From Burkholderiales bacterium (GTDB taxonomy: Bacteria; Pseudomonadota; Gammaproteobacteria; Burkholderiales; Burkholderiaceae_D), in contig PLEY01000086.1 of assembly GCA_003136595.1 (NCBI GenBank), forward strand, positions 292 to 42,409: DNA of 42,118 nucleotides, read 5' to 3'. The notes below the pieces were generated by a model. It was not told the origin of the DNA, ran no database searches, and saw only the letters and a list, made by a program, of their open reading frames with translations. A program made the position numbers and the translations under genes. Of this stretch, positions 7,063 to 39,225 are shown in pieces (the stretch's first letter is position 1; every line of letters starts with the position of its first letter).

Positions 7063-7857
7063 ATGCCCATTCAAGTGATCGAGACGCAACGGCTTTACCG
7101 GCAGATTGGTGAGCAGTTGCGCAAGCTCATCGAGGCCGGCGAGTTCAAGGTCGGCGCCCGGCTGCCTGCCGAACGCGACCTTGCCACCCAGCTCGGCGTG
7201 AGCCGTCCCTCCCTGCGCGAGGCCCTGATCGCGCTTGAGGTCCAGGGCTACATTGAAGTGCGCATGGGCTCAGGGATCTATGTCTGCGAGCCGGCCACCG
7301 GCCAGGGCCTTGCCCTTGACCTGGAGCGCGAGGAGGCACCGCTCGAACTGATTCATGCCCGACGGCTGGTCGAGGGCGAGGTCGCCGCCGCCGCGGCGCG
7401 CGTGGGGCGCAAGGTACAGTTCGACGCCATTGAAGCGGCGATCGTACGGATGGAGAAGGATGCGCGCGCCGGCGTCAACCCGCTCGCAGCGGACCGCTTG
7501 TTCCACCTGCGCGTTGCCGAGACGACCGGCAACAGCGTCCTGATCGGGCTCGTGCGCCGGCTCTTCGACGCACGGCTTGGACCGTTGTTTGCGAAGCTCG
7601 ACAGGCACTTCGAGACTCCCGAGGTGTGGACCCAGGCGATCGCCGAACATCGCGAGGTTCTGAAGGCGCTGCGCTCGCGCAGCCCGGCCAAGGCGCGCGC
7701 GGCGATGCGGCGACACATGGACGTCGCCTTCAAGCGCCTGACCAGAAGCCTCACGCGTACGCGTCGTGACAGGGCGCCAAACCGATCGGCCGGGGTCAAG
7801 CGCACGAGCACAGGCAGCCCGCCGGTCCGACCCAGCACCCGCAGCCGGCAGCGCTAG
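7063..7857 (+). CDS. FadR-subfamily GntR transcriptional regulator
   Basis: The 264-residue protein has an N-terminal winged helix (residues about 10-75: GARLPAERDLATQLGVSRPSLREALIALE, then a wing with GSGIYV). A C-terminal all-helical FCD domain carries the usual acidic/His metal-site residues: D and H around DRLFHLRV, EHREVLKAL, and RRHMD near the end of the domain. FCD-GntR regulators usually sense small organic or sugar acids and are relieved from DNA by them. The last 35 residues are basic and low-complexity and look poorly conserved. ATG at 7063 has GGAAGG upstream. The perfect TGGTAAGACCA before this gene and TGGTATGACCA in the other divergent region suggest that it regulates itself and the whole sugar-acid set. 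Confidence 0.9.
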   Translation: MPIQVIETQRLYRQIGEQLRKLIEAGEFKVGARLPAERDLATQLGVSRPSLREALIALEVQGYIEVRMGSGIYVCEPATGQGLALDLEREEAPLELIHARRLVEGEVAAAAARVGRKVQFDAIEAAIVRMEKDARAGVNPLAADRLFHLRVAETTGNSVLIGLVRRLFDARLGPLFAKLDRHFETPEVWTQAIAEHREVLKALRSRSPAKARAAMRRHMDVAFKRLTRSLTRTRRDRAPNRSAGVKRTSTGSPPVRPSTRSRQR

Positions 7858-8160
7858 CGCTTGGGCTGCACGATGCTGTGAGCGGATGTGAGGAGCAGTC
7901 GCCCGGGGACAATGTAAGGGCACCCAGATTCGTTCGCCTGCAAGCCTTCTCCCGCGGGGAGGGCCTGCGTTGTCGAAGCGCGCGTCGATGCGGCCCAGGC
8001 GAGCCCTCGTCGTTGCCACCATCGCCTCGGCTATGAAAAGGGAGTGGGGTCGGGAAATCGGTTCCGGTTGTGCAGCGACGCCCGGCTTGGGATCGCAAGG
8101 AAGGGGCGTGCAGGATCTGATCGGCTGCGCGGACCGGCGTGGACGTCCCGGGCAGGCCGG

Positions 8161-8204
8161 CTTCTTGAACGCTTCTTGGACGCTTCTTGAACGCTTCTCG
8201 GATT
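8161..8204. repeat. 11-bp tandem repeat, four units (CTTCTTGAACG)
   Basis: Four consecutive 11-base units are visible: CTTCTTGAACG, CTTCTTGGACG, CTTCTTGAACG and a degenerate CTTCTCGGATT. The unit has the same length and the same frame CTTCTTNNNCG as the array at 36195-36238. It lies in the non-coding stretch before pqqU. Confidence 0.85.
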
Positions 8205-8840
8205 ATTGCTAGGCACCCGGATCCGTACCGATGCAGCGGGCCTGGACAGGTGCGCCTGCCCCCGGACGTCCGCGCGCCACGAGCTTGACATCACTCGGTC
8301 TCGTGTGTCCCAATACTGCTACGCCGACACCTCCTGAGAACGAACGGCGACGAGACATCTCACCTGAGCCGAGCACCCGACATCATGTCCGGGAGCGCCG
8401 CTTCAACATCCAAGTGAATGCATGGACACGCGCAATGCTTGACCGATCGATCCGGCCGCACTGGATCTGGCGACACCCCGGCGGTGGCCAGAGGCTTGCG
8501 CGCCCGATGCAACTGCAGGGGACGATCCATCACTCGTGCACCTTCGCCAAGCTTGGGCCGCGCACGTTGCCAGCCCGTGCCGGGGACGCACTGCGTAGCG
8601 CCCTGGTCCTGGACCATGGCATCAAGCCGGCCGTCGAGAACGCAGCCCGCAGGATCACCGGGATGTATGGCGCAGGCACCGGCTGCGTTCCGCGCTCGGC
8701 GCCTGTCGGTCGCGGGATCAGCGTTGCTTCGTGGGTCGGCCCAGACGCGAACCGCAAGCTCGTCCATCAGCGGATCAAGACGGCAACCCGTATCGCGCAG
8801 CAGGAAGACGCTGCCGATGGCGTGGCACTGACCCGCTAAG

Positions 8841-8884
8841 GGCCGGTGTGGCGTCACCCGTATATCCCTCAACGCCACCCGGCC
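8841..8884 (+). promoter_or_regulatory. Strong hairpin in the leader of the PqqU-like receptor gene
   Basis: GGCCGGTGTGGCGT (8841-8854) can pair with ACGCCACCCGGCC (8872-8884), giving a 13-bp GC-rich stem with a single bulged T and a 17-base loop. The stem ends 25 bases before the receptor's first ATG. There is no T-run after it, so it is not a standard intrinsic terminator. A 5'-leader control element, or a barrier to upstream transcription, is possible. Confidence 0.5.
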
Positions 8885-12591: not shown

Positions 12592-12653
12592 GCCTGGGTG
12601 CCGACCTGAAAGAAGTTGAGGAAACGGGAGCGGGTGCCGCCCGATGCAACCGG

Positions 12654-12683
12654 ACATGGCCGTACATGGCCGTACTTGGCCTG
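12654..12683. repeat. 10-bp tandem repeat, three units (ACATGGCCGT)
   Basis: Two exact copies of ACATGGCCGT (12654-12663 and 12664-12673) are followed by a diverged copy ACTTGGCCTG. The array lies in the divergent space between the cytochrome b561 and glycosyltransferase genes and may overlap their promoters. Confidence 0.75.
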
Positions 12684-21624: not shown

Positions 21625-22295
21625 ATTCAACTCCCTCTGGGCGGCGCGCCGTCTCGCGATTGGACGCGGCTCCTTGTCTTTGCAACCTGTGCCTGGCAAT
21701 CTGCGCGCGGCGCCCTGGGGCGGGACTGCCGGGCAGGCGCGTAGCCCGGCACGCTGAGAAGCCACCCATTTCAGTCTTATCTATCCGAGATGACTACCAA
21801 AGAACGCAATCTGACAACAAATGAGCGGCGATGAGCATCATTTGCTGTTAGGGATTCAACACGACCTCCTTCTGGTGGACACCTTTTTTGGACACTTTTT
21901 GTGGACGCTTTCTGCAGACGCGATCGGGTCAAAAGAGCCCAACCGGGCGCGGCGGGCCCCACCGGGAAAGTCACCTGGTGGTGCGCCGGCGGGGCCAATC
22001 CCCTGGATTTGATCACGAGCATTCTAAAGATGTCGTTAAGAATTGATGAATCCGGGCGCCACGTGAAGGGATACACCAGGACACCCAGGGCTCCCATCGT
22101 GCCCAGAGCCAAGCCCTGGAGGGGCCGAAACCCGGCCAACGAGGACGTCACTGCCGGCCCATCCTCGATCGGGATGTGCCTGGCGGAGGCTGTAACGTTC
22201 CGGATCCGGATTCGAGCGCAAGGAGCAGAGTGTGCGGCCGATCTGAAGCGTCCACGATGTCGCGACCGATGATCCGACGCAGAAGGAGCGCTACC
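21625..22295. promoter_or_regulatory. Divergent region between the efflux operon and ada
   Basis: This 670-bp stretch has no convincing gene. It should hold the promoters of the leftward RND operon and rightward ada. An imperfect direct repeat at 21876-21914 is listed separately. The short palindrome TCCGGATCCGGA occurs near 22198-22210. The segment around 21770-22060 is distinctly richer in A and T than its surroundings, as expected of promoter DNA. Confidence 0.5.
21876..21914. repeat. Imperfect 13-bp direct repeat, three units (GGACACYTTTTT-like)
   Basis: Three successive units of about 13 bases can be aligned: GGACACCTTTTTT, GGACACTTTTTGT and GGACGCTTTCTGC, with AGACG beginning a possible fourth. 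Coordinates are accurate to a few bases. The array lies upstream of the RND operon. The last unit resembles the GGACGCTTCTTG found inside the array near 8172-8193. Confidence 0.6.
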
Positions 22296-32389: not shown

Positions 32390-35300
32390 GTGTCGAATCT
32401 CCTAGCCGCCATCGTGCAACGCGCAGCGCGCGCCGCATCCCTGCTGGGGGTCGCGGTGGCCGCTCTCGGGTTCCTGCTCGCCGCATGCGGGCCGGCCTCG
32501 GGACAGATCCTAAGCGGCAGTCCGCCGGTGACGCCTCTGACCCCCAATGTCGGCGCCCCGCCCGCCTCGATTGATATCGCCCAGGACGACAGCTCCCTGG
32601 TCTACGTGGCCAATGCCGCAGGCGTGCTCGTCTTCGATGGCGAACTCTGGCAGCTGATCCGGCTGCCCAACGGCGATGCCGTCAGTTCACTCATGTTTGA
32701 CGGCCACGACCGGGTCTATGTCGGTGGCCATAACCTGTTTGGCTACTTCGAGCGCGCCGCAACCGGCCAGCCGCTGTTCCACGATCTGACGCCCCTGTTT
32801 GCCACCGACCTCGGAGGCGAATCCTTCGGCGACATCTCGGCAATCCGCGTGACGGCCGACGGGGTGTTCCTGCAGTCGGTCAAGCATGTCTTCCTCTACG
32901 TGCCCGCGACCGGTGGGCACCGCGTCTGGCGACATGCCGGCCGCTTTGGCGCACTCGACCAGGTCGACGGCGAGCTGTGGCTGCAATTCCGCGGCGAAGG
33001 GATCCGCCGCTACCGGGATGGTGATTGGGTGTCGATCCCGGGCACCAGCGGCATGTCGCTGCTGACCAACGCATTCCTGAAACTACCCGACGGCGGCGTC
33101 CTTAGCATGACCTCGGACGGACTGTGGCGCGAATTCGTGGGCGGCAAGGTACGCGAGTACGCCATGCCCGCCGGATTTCCCACGGCATCGGCGATGAACA
33201 GCGCCCTGCTGCTGCGCGATGGATCGCTCGCCATGGCCGGGATCGACGGCGACCTGTGGCTCTACGATCCGAAGACCCGGCAGTCACAGAGCATGCATAT
33301 CGCCGATGGTCCGTTAAACGGGCTCAGCCTCGCCCGCTCGGGCGGGCTGCTCGCCGTCAGCGATCTGTCGGTCTACCAGATCGACTGGCCCGGCGACTGG
33401 ACCAGCCTTAGCCGCCACAACGGCATCAGTGGCACCATTCACCGCCTGCGTAACTGGGCTGGCCACTGGCTTGCACTGTCAAGCAACGGCGTCTACCGAT
33501 CCTCGGGGGCCGGCGAGGATGGCGCGGGGTTCGAGCGTCTGCGCTACACCGACTATGACGCCTTCGACATGATGGTGGTCGATGCGCACCACGCCCTCCT
33601 GGCGGAGAACTTCAAGCTCCTGTGGGTCGACGAGACCCATATCCTGCACGCCATCGGGCGCCCCGATCTTTATCCGCGCGTCCTGGTCCGCTCAACGCTC
33701 CATCCGGATCAGATCTATGTGGGGACCGAGTATGGCCTCGCGATTTTCGAGGCCGGTCCCCACGGCTATCGAATGCGCCTGGACCGCAGCCGCGACGAGG
33801 AGCGCATCACGAGCATCGTCGAACTGAACCCGACCCAGGTGCTGGCCGGGACGTCGCGACAGGGCCTGCGTCTTTTGACCTTCGACAGCGAGCACCAGCA
33901 CCTGCTCGAGGACCGGCAACTTGGCGCCGTCGATGGCCTGCGCTACGGACCCGTCCCGCAGGCGGCGGTCTCCATGCTCGCAGACGGGACGATCATCGGT
34001 TCGACGGCCGGGGGCCTGTACCGCTGGACGGGTGGCCATTTCGAGCCCACCGTCCTGCCTGGCCTGGATCTGCCCACGGCCGCCACTCCGGTGCTCACCT
34101 TCGCGGTCGGGCCGAGCGACGAATGGGCCTTCGGTGGCGAGCATATCTACCATCGCCCGGCGCGCGGGCCCTGGCATGCCGAGGAGATCGGCAACGTGGT
34201 GCGAGGCTACGTCGAATCGATCGCCTTCGAGCACGATGCCGCCGCCCTGTTCGGCTGCTCCAACACGATTCTCGTCTACCAGAAAACCGCCCGCGCCCAA
34301 ACGGTGCGGGCTCCCGTGGTGCAGTTGCGCAGCATCCAGGCGACCCGGCCCGGGGCCGCCGAGGAGCGCCTTGCGCTAAAGCCCGAGGAGACGCTGCGCT
34401 TTCCGGAGGATTTCAACATCGAATTCCATTTTGCCCTGCCGGAATTCAGCGGGCAGCGCTCGGCGTCCTACCAGGCGCGCCTGAAGGGTCGTGACGAATC
34501 GTTCTCGAACTGGCAACCCTCAAGCACCTACCGCTACCGCCACCTGCTGCCTGGCGAGTACACGTTCCAGGTCGCCGCGCGCGATCATCTTGGCCGCATC
34601 AGCGAGACCGAGCCGTTTCCGTTCACCGTCCTCGAACCCTGGTATGCGACCGTGTGGGCCCGAATACTCTGGGGGTTCATCGGCGTGGCCGCATTGGCCG
34701 GACTGGTCTATGTCGCGATCAGCTGGCGGACCTTCTGGTTGTCACGCAAGCGCACCGAGCTTGAGCGGATCGTCTCGGACCGCACGCGCGAACTGGTGGT
34801 GGCCAACGAGCGTCTGAATGAACTCGCGCACCGGGACACGCTGACGGGTCTCGCCAACCGGGCCCTGTTCGAGCGGCGGCTCGAACAGGCGCGTGCCAGC
34901 GCGCAACGCCATGGCACGCGCTTTGCCGTGCTCTTCATCGACCTGGATCAATTCAAGACCATCAACGACAGTCTGGGCCATGAGGCGGGCGACCGCCTGC
35001 TCAAGGAGATCTCGAGCCGCCTGTCCGAGCGGCTGCGGCGCGAGGACACGCTCGCCCGCTGGGGGGGCGACGAGTTCATGGTCCTGGCCGAGGATCTCCA
35101 TTCCACCGCCGATGTCGCCGTCATCGCGCAGACCCTCCTCGAGACCGCCTCGGCCCCAATCCGCCTGTCGGCCGACGCGGTCGCCGCGCTCAGCACGAGC
35201 GTTGGCGTCTCCATGTATCCGGACGATGCGACCAATGTCTACGAGCTGATCCGCAACGCCGACACCGCCATGTACTCGGCCAAGAAGCGCGGCGGCAATC

Positions 35301-36130
35301 AATGGTGCTTCTACGCGTCCGAGATGACTGCCCTCGCCCGTGAGCGGCTTGAGATCCTAAGCGGCCTGCGCGCCGCCGCCGAGGAAGGCGACTTCGTGCT
35401 GCATTACCAGCCGATCGTCGATGTCGACAGCGGCCGGTTGGTGGGAGCCGAGGCGCTCATCCGCTGGGAGAAGATCCCCGGCCAGCTGATCTCCCCGGGG
35501 ACCTTCATTTCGATCGCGGAATCGACCGATCTCATCTCGACCATCGGGGCGTGGGTGCTGCGCACCGCGTGCCAGGAGGCGCGGCGGTGGCTGAACGACG
35601 ATCCCGAGTTTTCCCTGGCGATCAACATTTCGCCGCGCCAGTTGCGCAGCCACGAGGTTGTGCGAGTGGTCGAATCGGTGGTCCGCGAATTCGACATCAA
35701 TCCGCGCCAGCTCACGCTCGAGGTCACCGAGAGCTGCATTGCGGAGGCCGGCGAGGATGCGCAGGCCGTCATCAATGCCCTGAAGTCGGTGGGCGTGCGG
35801 ATCGCCGTGGACGACTTCGGCACGGGCCAGTCGGCGCTTGCGAGCCTGAAGCGCTTCGACTTCGATGCGCTGAAGATCGATCGCAGCTTCATCCGCGACA
35901 TCCCGCTCGACACCAACGACATGGAGATCGCAGCGACCATCGTCGCGATGGGCCACACCTTGGGGCTCCTCGTCATCGCCGAGGGCGTTGAGACCGACGA
36001 GCAGCTCGCCTTCCTGAAACACTGCGGCTGCGACCGCTATCAGGGATTCCTCTACGGTCCCGGCGTGACGGCGAAGGTACTCACCGAACAGCTCGACAGT
36101 CAACGATTCGCCGCCACGATCGCGGGTTGA
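32390..36130 (+). CDS. Periplasmic beta-propeller sensor with GGDEF and EAL domains
   Basis: This is a 1246-residue membrane receptor for c-di-GMP control. Order: signal sequence (to about 40), a two-component-type beta-propeller (about 55-640, with repeated units such as LVYVANAAGVLVFDGELWQLI and IYVGTEYGLAIFE) and a Y_Y_Y domain (about 665-745, YQARLKGRDESFSNWQPSSTYRYRHLLPGEYTFQVAA). A membrane helix (about 757-778), a coiled coil, GGDEF and EAL follow. The GGDEF motif is intact at 892-896, with an inhibitory RxxD (RRED) five residues before it. EAL is intact (1021-1023), as are DDFGTG, LKIDRSF and EGVET. Both synthesis and breakdown of c-di-GMP are possible. The signal end reads LAACGP, which also fits a lipobox. 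Start GTG 32390 has only a weak ribosome site. Confidence 0.92.
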   Translation: MSNLLAAIVQRAARAASLLGVAVAALGFLLAACGPASGQILSGSPPVTPLTPNVGAPPASIDIAQDDSSLVYVANAAGVLVFDGELWQLIRLPNGDAVSSLMFDGHDRVYVGGHNLFGYFERAATGQPLFHDLTPLFATDLGGESFGDISAIRVTADGVFLQSVKHVFLYVPATGGHRVWRHAGRFGALDQVDGELWLQFRGEGIRRYRDGDWVSIPGTSGMSLLTNAFLKLPDGGVLSMTSDGLWREFVGGKVREYAMPAGFPTASAMNSALLLRDGSLAMAGIDGDLWLYDPKTRQSQSMHIADGPLNGLSLARSGGLLAVSDLSVYQIDWPGDWTSLSRHNGISGTIHRLRNWAGHWLALSSNGVYRSSGAGEDGAGFERLRYTDYDAFDMMVVDAHHALLAENFKLLWVDETHILHAIGRPDLYPRVLVRSTLHPDQIYVGTEYGLAIFEAGPHGYRMRLDRSRDEERITSIVELNPTQVLAGTSRQGLRLLTFDSEHQHLLEDRQLGAVDGLRYGPVPQAAVSMLADGTIIGSTAGGLYRWTGGHFEPTVLPGLDLPTAATPVLTFAVGPSDEWAFGGEHIYHRPARGPWHAEEIGNVVRGYVESIAFEHDAAALFGCSNTILVYQKTARAQTVRAPVVQLRSIQATRPGAAEERLALKPEETLRFPEDFNIEFHFALPEFSGQRSASYQARLKGRDESFSNWQPSSTYRYRHLLPGEYTFQVAARDHLGRISETEPFPFTVLEPWYATVWARILWGFIGVAALAGLVYVAISWRTFWLSRKRTELERIVSDRTRELVVANERLNELAHRDTLTGLANRALFERRLEQARASAQRHGTRFAVLFIDLDQFKTINDSLGHEAGDRLLKEISSRLSERLRREDTLARWGGDEFMVLAEDLHSTADVAVIAQTLLETASAPIRLSADAVAALSTSVGVSMYPDDATNVYELIRNADTAMYSAKKRGGNQWCFYASEMTALARERLEILSGLRAAAEEGDFVLHYQPIVDVDSGRLVGAEALIRWEKIPGQLISPGTFISIAESTDLISTIGAWVLRTACQEARRWLNDDPEFSLAINISPRQLRSHEVVRVVESVVREFDINPRQLTLEVTESCIAEAGEDAQAVINALKSVGVRIAVDDFGTGQSALASLKRFDFDALKIDRSFIRDIPLDTNDMEIAATIVAMGHTLGLLVIAEGVETDEQLAFLKHCGCDRYQGFLYGPGVTAKVLTEQLDSQRFAATIAG

Positions 36131-36148
36131 TCCCGCGATCGTGGCGGC
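36110..36148 (+). terminator. Perfect 17-bp hairpin spanning the stop codon of the GGDEF-EAL receptor
   Basis: Bases 36110-36126 (GCCGCCACGATCGCGGG) and 36132-36148 are exact reverse complements separated by five bases, TTGAT, which include the TGA stop codon. The stem therefore includes the last codons of the gene. It would be extremely stable in RNA. No T-run follows, so a Rho-independent terminator of the usual form is not shown; transcript 3'-end protection is also possible. Confidence 0.55.
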
Positions 36149-36194
36149 CGGGCTGCAGCCGGCTGCATTGGCGCATCCGGATGCGTCGCCCCCG

Positions 36195-36238
36195 CGCTTC
36201 TTCTGCGCTTCTTCTGCGCTTCTTCTGCGCTTCTTCTG
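36195..36238. repeat. 11-bp tandem repeat, four exact units (CGCTTCTTCTG)
   Basis: Four identical 11-base units CGCTTCTTCTG follow one another, with a diverged fifth (CACTTCTGCCG) to 36249. The array lies between the receptor gene and ppc, 65 bp after the receptor's stop. Written as CTTCTTCTGCG the unit matches the array at 8161-8204 at the positions CTTCTTNNNCG. Confidence 0.9.
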
Positions 36239-36384
36239 CACTTCTGCCGCACGCCCCCCCCGCGGATGCCCTGCGCTTTACCGACGGATCGTCCCCTGGA
36301 CACAGCGGGCATGGAGCATGCTTGCGTGATCTTGTTATGATGCACGGGCAGCGGCGCCGCGCGCGGCACCGGGCCTGAGTATCG

Positions 36385-39225
36385 ATGCACCGACAACCAA
36401 GGGAGCGATGCGTGCGGGGCGAACCTGAACTGCAGCCAGGCGTCATCCGTCCGGTGGACCCCGCCGAGGAGCTGCGTGGAGACATCCGCTTTCTCGGACG
36501 GCTTCTGGGGGAGGTGGTTCGGGATCAGGCAGGCGAGAAGATCTTTGAGCGGGTCGAACATATCCGTCAGCTTGCTGTGCGTTTTCGCCGCCGTCAGGAT
36601 CCGGCGGCGGCGAGTGAGCTCGCCCGCACGCTAAACCGTCTGGTCGGCGAAGAGACCAACGTGGTGGTGCGCGCCTTTAGCTATTTCTCGCAACTCATCA
36701 ATATCGCTGAAGACCACGACCTGCAGAGGCGCCGCCGGCGCAACGAACTGGCGGGCGTGGCCTCGCCCCCCGGAAGCATCGACCATACCTTCGCCCTGTT
36801 ACGCGCCGCGCGGATTCGGCCGGAGGTGATCGAGGCGCTGTTGCGCGAGGCCCTGGTGGTGCCGGTGCTGACCGCGCATCCCACCGAGGTACAGCGCAAG
36901 AGCACGCTCGATGCACAGCGCGAGATTGCGCGCCTGCTGGCCGACCGTGACCGGCCGCACACCTCGCGCGAGCTGGAATCGATCGGAGAGCATCTGACCG
37001 CCGCCCTGGTCGGATTGTGGCAGACCCGCATGCTGCGCTATAGCCGGCTGACGGTCGCCGACGAGATCGAGAACGCGCTGTCCTTCTATCGTGTGACGTT
37101 CCTGCCGGAGATCCCCAAACTCTACGAGGAGATCGAGACAGCTCTAAAGGCTCAGTTCAAAAGAGGGGCGCCGAGCCTGCCGCTGCCCCCCTTGTTACAG
37201 ATGGGCTCCTGGATCGGCGGCGACCGGGACGGCAATCCCAACGTCGATGCGACAACGCTGCAATGGGCGCTCTCGCAGCACGCTGGCGTCATTCTCGGGT
37301 TCTATCTGGAAGAGGTGCACGCGCTGGGCGCCGACCTGTCCATGTCGACCTTGCTGATACCGGCGAGCCCGGCCCTGCTCGAACTCGCGGCGGCGTCGCC
37401 CGATCAGTCGCCCCACCGATCCGATGAGCCCTACCGGCGGGCGCTGGTCGGGGTCTACGCCCGATTGGCCGCGACCGCGCGACGGCTCGGGCGAACCGAG
37501 ATCGTGCGCCAGGAAGTCGCGGCCGCCGCCGCCTACGAACGGCCCGAAGCACTGGCTGCGGATCTGCGCTTGATCCATGACTCGCTCGCCCAGAACCATG
37601 GTACCGCCCTGACCCGCCCCCGGCTAAGCCACCTGCTGCGCGCCGTCGATGTGTTCGGATTCCACCTGGCTTCGGTGGACCTGCGCCAGACCTCGGACGT
37701 GCACGAGCGGACCGTGGCGGAACTGTTGCGCTGTGTCGGTGTCTTTGAGGACTACGCGGGCGCCCCCGAGGCCAAGCGGGTCGAAATTCTCCTGGCTGAG
37801 CTCGCCAATCCGCGCCCCCTGATCCTGCCTTACCACGTCTACACGGAGGAGACGCACAAGGAGTTAGCGGCCTTCGAGGCCGCACGCCTTGCGCGCTCCC
37901 AATACGGACACCGGGCGGTGCGTACCGTCATCATCTCGCATACCGAGACCCTCTCGGATCTGCTCGAGGTGGCCCTGCTGCTCAAGGAGCATGGACTGGC
38001 TTCGATCGGGAGCGGCGCGGGGCCGACACGGACCGAAGTGTGCGTCGCGCCCCTGTTCGAGACGATCGAGGATCTGGATGCGGCCCCGGGAATCATCGCG
38101 CGGCTGCTCGGGCTCTCCAAGCAGATCAGGCTCTATCCCGACGAGGAGAATGCCGCGCAGGAGATCATGCTCGGCTACTCCGACAGCAACAAGGATGGTG
38201 GATTCCTCACCTCGAACTGGTCACTCTACAAGGCTGAAGTCGCGCTCTCGGAACTGTTCGCCAAAGCCAACGTCCGGCTGAGGCTGTTTCACGGCCGGGG
38301 CGGCTCGGTGGGCCGCGGTGGCGGACCGAGCTATGAGGCGATCCTCGCGCAACCCCCCGGCACCATTTCCGGGCAGATACGGCTCACCGAACAGGGCGAG
38401 ATCATCGCCAACAAGTTCTCGCACCCCGACATCGGCCGTCGCAACCTGGAGACCCTGGTGGCCGCCACCATCGAGAGCAGTCTTGGCGTAGGCACCCAGC
38501 CTGCCCCCGCTGCACGCCGCAAGTTCGAGGCGGCCATGGAGGACCTGAGCGCGCTCGCGTTTCGCAGCTACCGGGCGCTGGTCTATGAGACCCCGGGGTT
38601 CGCCGAGTACTTCTTTGCCACCACCCCGATCTCCGAGATTGCCGAACTCAACATCGGCAGCCGTCCCGCCTCGCGCAAGGGGGGCAGACGCATCGAGGAT
38701 CTGCGCGCCATTCCCTGGGGGTTCTCTTGGGGCCAATGCCGCCTGCTCCTGCCCGGCTGGTACGGCTTTGGCAGCGCCGTCGAGGAGTGGCTGCGCAGCG
38801 AACCCAAGGAACGCGCCGCCCGGATGGCGCTGTTGCGCCGCATGGCCGACGAGTGGCCGCTGTTTCGCACGCTCCTTGCCAACATCTCGATGGTGCTCGC
38901 CAAGACCGACCTGCGCGTGGCGTCGCGCTATGCAACGCTGGTGGCCGATACGCGCTTAAGGCGCCGCATCTTCAGCGCCATCGAGGCCGAGTGGCATCGC
39001 ACGCGCAGTACGCTGCTCGCGATCACCGGCCAGGGTGACCTGCTGTCAGACAATCCGGAACTGGCGCGCTCCATCCGGCAGCGCCTGCCGTATCTCGACC
39101 CCTTGAACCATCTGCAGGTGGAACTGATCAAGCGCTATCGCGCGGGCGAGGACAACGAAAGGCTCAAGCGAGCCATCCACATGACCATCAATGGGGTGGC
39201 CTCGGGACTGCGCAACACGGGATAG
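36385..39225 (+). CDS. ppc: Phosphoenolpyruvate carboxylase
   Basis: This 946-residue enzyme adds bicarbonate to PEP to give oxaloacetate, refilling the TCA cycle. Bacterial PEPC motifs are all present: VLTAHPTEVQRKS (catalytic His about 165), MGSWIGGDRDGNPNV, VDVFGFHLASVDLRQ, GYSDSNKDGG, the glycine-rich FHGRGGSVGRGGGPSYEAI, QGEIIANKF and a C-terminus ending RNTG. Length is slightly above the usual 880-930 because of an N-terminal extension (about 25 residues, MHRQPRERCVRGEPEL); a GTG at 36412 would shorten it. No strong ribosome site is visible before the ATG at 36385. It is monocistronic, following the repeat array and the receptor hairpin, and converges with a small hypothetical gene. Confidence 0.95.
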   Translation: MHRQPRERCVRGEPELQPGVIRPVDPAEELRGDIRFLGRLLGEVVRDQAGEKIFERVEHIRQLAVRFRRRQDPAAASELARTLNRLVGEETNVVVRAFSYFSQLINIAEDHDLQRRRRRNELAGVASPPGSIDHTFALLRAARIRPEVIEALLREALVVPVLTAHPTEVQRKSTLDAQREIARLLADRDRPHTSRELESIGEHLTAALVGLWQTRMLRYSRLTVADEIENALSFYRVTFLPEIPKLYEEIETALKAQFKRGAPSLPLPPLLQMGSWIGGDRDGNPNVDATTLQWALSQHAGVILGFYLEEVHALGADLSMSTLLIPASPALLELAAASPDQSPHRSDEPYRRALVGVYARLAATARRLGRTEIVRQEVAAAAAYERPEALAADLRLIHDSLAQNHGTALTRPRLSHLLRAVDVFGFHLASVDLRQTSDVHERTVAELLRCVGVFEDYAGAPEAKRVEILLAELANPRPLILPYHVYTEETHKELAAFEAARLARSQYGHRAVRTVIISHTETLSDLLEVALLLKEHGLASIGSGAGPTRTEVCVAPLFETIEDLDAAPGIIARLLGLSKQIRLYPDEENAAQEIMLGYSDSNKDGGFLTSNWSLYKAEVALSELFAKANVRLRLFHGRGGSVGRGGGPSYEAILAQPPGTISGQIRLTEQGEIIANKFSHPDIGRRNLETLVAATIESSLGVGTQPAPAARRKFEAAMEDLSALAFRSYRALVYETPGFAEYFFATTPISEIAELNIGSRPASRKGGRRIEDLRAIPWGFSWGQCRLLLPGWYGFGSAVEEWLRSEPKERAARMALLRRMADEWPLFRTLLANISMVLAKTDLRVASRYATLVADTRLRRRIFSAIEAEWHRTRSTLLAITGQGDLLSDNPELARSIRQRLPYLDPLNHLQVELIKRYRAGEDNERLKRAIHMTINGVASGLRNTG

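Follow-up and report, generated by a model that had tools for sequence, protein, structure and literature searches.

The window analysed here is a stretch of 42,118 nucleotides (65% G+C) on contig C86 of a Burkholderiales genome of 4.86 Mb in 196 contigs. It contains a gene for a GGDEF-EAL protein followed on the same strand, after a gap of 281 bp, by the phosphoenolpyruvate carboxylase gene ppc, with a perfect hairpin lying across the stop codon of the first. The features of the locus are as follows.

32390 to 36130, + strand: gene for a GGDEF-EAL protein of 1246 aa, from an open frame and domain matches; TGA at 36128-36130
36110 to 36126, + strand: coding arm of the hairpin, the last codons of the gene (protein tail ...AATIAG), sequence GCCGCCACGATCGCGGG
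36127 to 36131, + strand: loop TTGAT with the stop codon inside, from inspection of the inverted repeat
36132 to 36148, + strand: non-coding arm, exact reverse complement of 36110-36126
36150 to 36193, + strand: structured stretch adjoining the hairpin, from RNA folds
36186 to 36262, + strand: tract rich in C and poor in G (C37 G14 T24 A2), a candidate site for Rho loading
36194 to 36245, + strand: 11-bp tandem repeat GCGCTTCTTCT in 4.7 copies within the C-rich tract, giving UC steps every 11 nt
36333 to 36341, + strand: extended -10-like element TGtTATGAT upstream of ppc (TGtTATCAT in the congener)
36412 to 39225, + strand: ppc, whose longest frame opens at 36385

The GGDEF-EAL protein carries GGDEF and EAL domains, and a Y_Y_Y match falls below the cut-off. 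Since the EAL match stops at residue 1224 of 1246, with the hairpin codons C-terminal of it, these codons are probably tolerated by the protein. At its other end (32390-32500) the protein opens with a hydrophobic segment that closes on LLAAC and to us resembles a lipoprotein signal.

Comparison with a congener and an upstream AAGGGAG indicate that ppc probably starts at GTG 36412. The block CTTGTTATGATGCA before ppc is common to the congener, as CTTGTTATCATGCA, and we take the TGtTATGAT within the intergenic gap to be an extended -10 element; a simple motif scan for sigma-70 promoters does not list it. Given that this block, so read, precedes ppc, the GGDEF-EAL gene and ppc look like separate transcription units. 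Among plasmid records, the ppc protein finds its best match in Cupriavidus plasmid copies (61%).

Between hairpin and promoter-like block, a longer fold (36110-36262) pairs the stretch at 36150-36193 with the C-rich tract and not with itself, and most of the tract is taken up in this pairing with the sequence preceding it. The best 70-mer of the tract has a C-G excess of 21, ranking fourth among 166 gene ends, though 3 of 166 coding controls also attain it; by structure the tract ranks 46th of the 166 and is thus not notably unstructured. Its assignment as a Rho site is suggestive only.

Geometry of the stem and expectation by chance

The two arms are exact reverse complements, forming a perfect inverted repeat (17+5+17) in which all 17 pairs are Watson-Crick with zero G-U. 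The flanking bases (C/C) are unpaired, and beyond both ends of the stem pairing drops abruptly to background. The initial annotation, which described an exact 17-base repeat with the stop codon in a five-base loop and a non-coding arm mirroring the terminal codons without a mismatch, is accurate on each of these points. A 40-base window on the TGA folds at -39.4 kcal/mol, and the RNA fold of 36090-36200 has z = -4.9, with none of 200 dinucleotide shuffles doing as well.

From base composition, perfect stems of at least 17 bp with loops of 3-8 are expected 6.6e-5 times per window and 0.0076 times per 4.86 Mb genome, so that chance pairing alone is insufficient to account for this one; the earlier judgement that chance was very unlikely is borne out, by these figures and by the shuffles. 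The first 823 kb sampled gave 17 perfect hairpins of at least 11 bp, of which this one is the longest and the runners-up reach 13 bp; 260 kb sampled later held no perfect hairpin above 11 bp. The 17-bp stop-codon hairpin is real and unusually perfect.

Two other readings can be set aside. An assembly artefact is unlikely, as the sequence behind the hairpin runs into ppc, as it does in the congener. Stop readthrough or recoding might be entertained because the frame after the TGA stays open for 69 codons, yet in the congener another in-frame stop comes four codons after the TAG, so readthrough is not conserved.

Stop-centred folds across gene ends

Whether such hairpins form a class can be asked of gene ends at large. 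Ends were called with our own codon-usage script, not a published gene caller, and were excluded when less than 300 nt upstream or less than 200 nt downstream was available in the stretch, when the gene was shorter than 300 nt and, in later sets, when N lay nearby. The first sample comprised 362 ends, later 339 after retraining and the N filter, and its count at <=-20 kcal/mol was 16 in the 362-end version and 13 in the 339-end version. As a control (flank swap), each upstream flank was given the downstream sequence of a different gene with about the same G+C.

Across 801 gene ends (22% of the genome), the 17-bp hairpin is the strongest stop-centred fold, at -39.4 kcal/mol; the next is 13.7 kcal/mol weaker, at -25.7, and no other end reaches -26 (1/801). 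An end at -28.9, at a convergent overlapping gene pair (L054), was present in the 362-end set and is missing from the later sets, for which genes were called anew and N stretches removed. A genome-wide class of strong stop-centred hairpins is rejected, and this hairpin stands by itself as an outlier with no strong class beneath it. The initial annotation had suggested scanning all stop codons for similar repeats: at this strength the locus is a single case, while at <=-18 kcal/mol a small excess of moderate stems in this genome does stand.

In 40-base folds over 615 ends, the excess of strong folds is broad at +20 to +50 and narrow exactly at the stop. At the stop, 48 folds reach <=-18 kcal/mol, against a coding background of 28.1 and a flank-swap expectation of 34.5 (1 of 150 permutations as high); at <=-20 the count is 23 versus 15.4 (6/150), and at <=-25 it is 4 versus 1.5 (12/150). 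About one-third of the stop-centred peak is composition, an AT-containing stop codon being suited to a loop; the remainder, about 13 ends or 2%, looks like genuine pairing. The flank-swap control shows in this way that composition is part of the reason why stop codons come to lie in hairpin loops.

The excess recurs among 462 ends beyond those first sampled, where 33 folds reach <=-18 against 20.9 expected (0/100); it is weaker at <=-20, with 13 against 8.2 (6/100), and has vanished at <=-22 (2 versus 3.2). The 187 newest ends alone give 10 versus 6.1 at <=-18 (5/100). In the first sample the flank-swap contrast is weak at <=-18 (24 versus 20.2, 17/100) and clearer at <=-25 (4 versus 1.4, 5/100).

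Three relatives give no excess at <=-18: 7 versus 8.0 over 247 ends in the congener (G001), 1 versus 3.7 over 166 ends in G026, and 4 versus 4.1 over 170 ends in G030, the last of which has 4 versus 1.7 at <=-20 (8/150). The small excess of moderate stop-centred stems at <=-18 is thus seen in this genome only among the four, a mild lead in this species as against the three relatives sampled.

Within the window, the second-strongest stop-centred case is at 8815-8870, where an imperfect hairpin of 15 pairs (about -24.7 kcal/mol) has in its loop the TAA that closes the frame 8231(8507)-8839; this frame has no Pfam match.

Comparison with the congener

A search with the GGDEF-EAL protein in 80 genomes, its own included, gave matches in 78. 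Among the matches listed, besides the gene itself, only that of the congener G001 is near full length; the others listed cover the GGDEF-EAL part only (residue 701 onward) at 40-47% identity. A scan of contigs for relatives likewise returned one, L012, aligned to residues 5-1246, which is probably one and the same as contig G001:C258. The genus-level comparison is therefore one of two genomes, with G001 as the single congener.

The congener protein is 74-75% identical, ppc is likewise the next gene, and the two GGDEF-EAL proteins have the tail Ile-Ala-Gly in common. At the congener stop, a TAG, only smaller local stems occur nearby and the 17-bp hairpin is absent; the alignment behind the stop is poor. 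Since the congener gene end is without it, the hairpin is either young or lost in the congener. A C-rich tract is also found behind the congener stop (best 70-mer C-G = 19, versus 21 here), and upstream of ppc there is a short 12-bp tandem repeat of 2.2 copies, with units that differ from those of the 11-bp array.

Hairpins behind stop codons in general

The locus can be placed among ordinary gene ends as well. Hairpins of at least 8 bp centred +10 to +60 after stops occur at 18 of 615 ends, whereas three equally wide coding controls have 1, 6 and 7. Six of the 18 have a U-tail (none of the control hairpins does) and 12 are without one, so part of the hairpin excess behind stops is U-less. U-less 3'-end stems thus seem at least as frequent as U-tailed ones in this genome; a looser test for a stem plus T-run gave 10/362 ends versus 8/362 on the opposite strand. 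All four genomes examined show an excess of strong folds or hairpins behind stops. On a large scale, perfect inverted repeats are enriched behind bacterial stop codons with a peak at +50 to +80 (PMC13155455).

The 17-bp hairpin itself has the GC-rich stem and short, 5-nt loop of a canonical intrinsic terminator; it differs in lying too near the stop codon and in having no U-tract behind it (1 T in 9 nt), and it is absent from the matches of a terminator scan for stem plus U-tract, to which this gene end is invisible. A canonical terminator is rejected on this ground. The hairpin does conform to a U-lacking, or I-shaped, 3' end, with a stable stem and fewer than 3 U in the following 8 nt.

The factors that would act on such an end are encoded. 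A rho gene is present (profile match of 519.9 bits, over the cut-off, covering profile positions 133-414 only, since the contig ends within the gene), and a pnp (PNPase) sequence is also found. The PNPase match (G000:C145:3-1691), at the edge of a contig, is split in three, and its final piece contains an internal TGA, perhaps through sequencing errors there. The mean C>G skew behind stops is near zero in this genome, which gives no general Rho signature.

A candidate 3'-end hairpin and its origin

The explanation that we put first, with in our judgement an even chance of being correct, is that the hairpin arose recently when a template switch in replication duplicated the terminal codons in inverted form, and that it closes the GGDEF-EAL transcript as a 3'-end hairpin of the U-less kind, blocking exonucleases with Rho acting downstream. 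RNA polymerase would pass the stop codon, and the 17-bp stem would close once the last ribosome had departed. Some 55-130 nt past the stop, Rho could then load on the C-rich, G-poor tract and end transcription before the ppc promoter, after which 3'-5' exonucleases such as PNPase would trim the tail up to the stem, leaving a stable 3' end just beyond. The arrangement itself would stem from a recent event in which the terminal codons were copied, inverted, directly behind the stop. Observed among these elements are the stem and its perfection, its absence from the congener, the tract downstream and the rho and pnp sequences in the genome; from them we infer transcription end, trimming, protection and template switch.

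Precedents exist for both halves of this account. Transcripts ended by Rho in Escherichia coli and Bacillus subtilis have their tails removed by 3'-5' exonucleases as far as a stable structure (PMC7815308, PMC12350095); the present locus resembles these ends in its strong U-less stem at a gene end, in the C-rich, G-poor tract downstream and in the rho and pnp sequences of the genome. In the GC-rich Streptomyces clavuligerus many structured ends are without a U-tract (PMC8269248), and the likeness there lies in high stability and in a count of U below 3 over the 8 nt that follow the stem. The present stem is unlike both in spanning the stop codon itself. Against the proposal, U-tailed terminators occur in this genome too (6/18).

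The origin by template switch is favoured because the arms are perfect, the edges abrupt and the hairpin absent from the relative, and an origin in one step would account for the perfection of the stem. Template switches yielding perfect RNA stems, which can arise in a single step, are described in PMC8794818; the perfect reverse-complement arms with sharp edges and the absence in a relative are common ground, and the case differs in that the novel stems treated in that work lie in microRNA and rRNA genes. With a single congener too diverged to yield the ancestral state, a template switch and ordinary evolution with selection are indistinguishable.

The main rival is that the same event left a functionless mutational product, a scar that persists because many codons are tolerated in the protein tail and the bases after the stop are free to vary. 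This is possible, though we regard it as clearly the less probable account. It is consistent with the lone case at this strength in 801 ends, with the absence of the hairpin in the congener and with the position of the hairpin codons beyond the EAL match, where there is little constraint. Against it, the hairpin sits exactly at a gene end, with more structure and a C-rich tract alongside and a separate promoter-like element to follow, just where one would look for a 3'-end element, and strong folds or hairpins behind stops are in excess in four of four genomes.

A ribosome sitting on a stop codon keeps a stop-spanning stem open, and termination by U-less stems is disputed. Both bear on a second rival, in which the stem, perhaps with the structure that follows, would halt RNA polymerase without Rho as an I-shaped intrinsic terminator. 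The very stable GC-rich stem and the extra structure directly 3' of it would suit this role; hairpins or clusters without a U-tract near stop codons have been proposed as terminators (PMC8355165), and such ends are common in the GC-rich genome cited above (PMC8269248). We nevertheless judge it unlikely, as the stem begins inside coding sequence, where a ribosome finishing translation would keep it from closing. Ribosomes strongly repressed terminators placed within a few bp of the stop codon in E. coli reporters (PMC4824070, which also mentions terminators overlapping the upstream gene). Because the last ribosome holds the stem open and near-stop terminators work poorly in E. coli, a 3'-end barrier is preferred over an intrinsic terminator.

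The preferred 3'-end hairpin can be extended into a composite end-of-gene module, in which a stem forming after the last ribosome is followed by an 11-nt-periodic UC array spaced for Rho, ordering the finish of translation, Rho loading and 3'-end protection, and of which the moderate stop-centred stems genome-wide would be milder forms. We regard this extension as very doubtful. Comparably improbable, and if anything the more so, is a ribosome-sensing switch, in which melting and reforming of the stem at the stop would report ribosome release and regulate message stability. The stop codon inside the loop invites the idea, as does the small excess of moderate stop-centred stems here (48 versus 34.5 over 615 ends and 33 versus 20.9 over 462 ends, at <=-18). 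The lone case at this strength, three relatives without excess at <=-18 and the same gene in the congener without this stem speak against it, and regulation is an unneeded assumption. Of the earlier proposal that a ribosome reaching the stop must melt the stem and so couple translation end to transcript stability, the first part agrees with general knowledge and the E. coli reporters; a dedicated coupling system is not supported, with a single case at this strength and no excess at <=-18 in three relatives.

A dispersed repeat (a REP-like palindrome or DNA-uptake sequence) or a described RNA family, which a perfect inverted repeat adjoining a gene end might suggest, can be dismissed: a whole-genome arm search with up to 2 mismatches gave 24 matches, 22 of them lone arms elsewhere, with both arms together at one site only, and no Rfam family reaches the gathering score anywhere in the window.

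The hairpin looks like a one-off of a familiar type, with no new mechanism, and it overturns nothing; a hairpin with a stop codon in its loop may already be described in the literature. It is nonetheless a clean natural case in which coding sequence also supplies one of the two arms of a hairpin at the end of a message, and it plausibly captures how a perfect RNA stem can come about through a single mutational step.

The GntR palindrome and tandem arrays

A second stop codon, that of a GntR gene, was also reported to lie in a smaller palindrome. The perfect 12-bp palindrome is indeed present at 7850-7861 (AGCGCTAGCGCT), with TAG inside; a meaning beyond chance is not supported, some 17 such palindromes being expected in 42 kb (pairing probability 0.273). 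In the best local fold it is not used as a symmetric stem. At chance level and unused by that fold, it adds nothing to the argument.

Tandem arrays occur in the window at 36194-36245, 8160-8202, 12650-12681 and 21875-21911. Arrays number 59 in 133.6 kb of intergenic DNA in this genome (G000), where 10 Markov-resampled controls average 3.1; intergenic DNA of the congener (G001) has 14 in 45.5 kb, where the controls average 0.4. Units of 10-13 bp make up 36 of the 59 and 8 of the 14. G026 has 2 in 30.0 kb and G030 2 in 17.8 kb, and within genes each of the four genomes has 2.9-5.5 arrays per 100 kb. Short intergenic tandem arrays are thus unusually dense in the genus (G000 and G001), and the G000 units listed vary from one array to another.

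The array at 8160-8202 has an 11-bp repeat, GCTTCTTGAAC, and could represent operator-like direct repeats; an OmpR/PhoB-type operator is a conceivable reading that we considered for an 11-bp array. Three CTTCT motifs at 11-bp spacing occur at two sites only in the genome, 8160-8202 and 36194-36245, both within the window.
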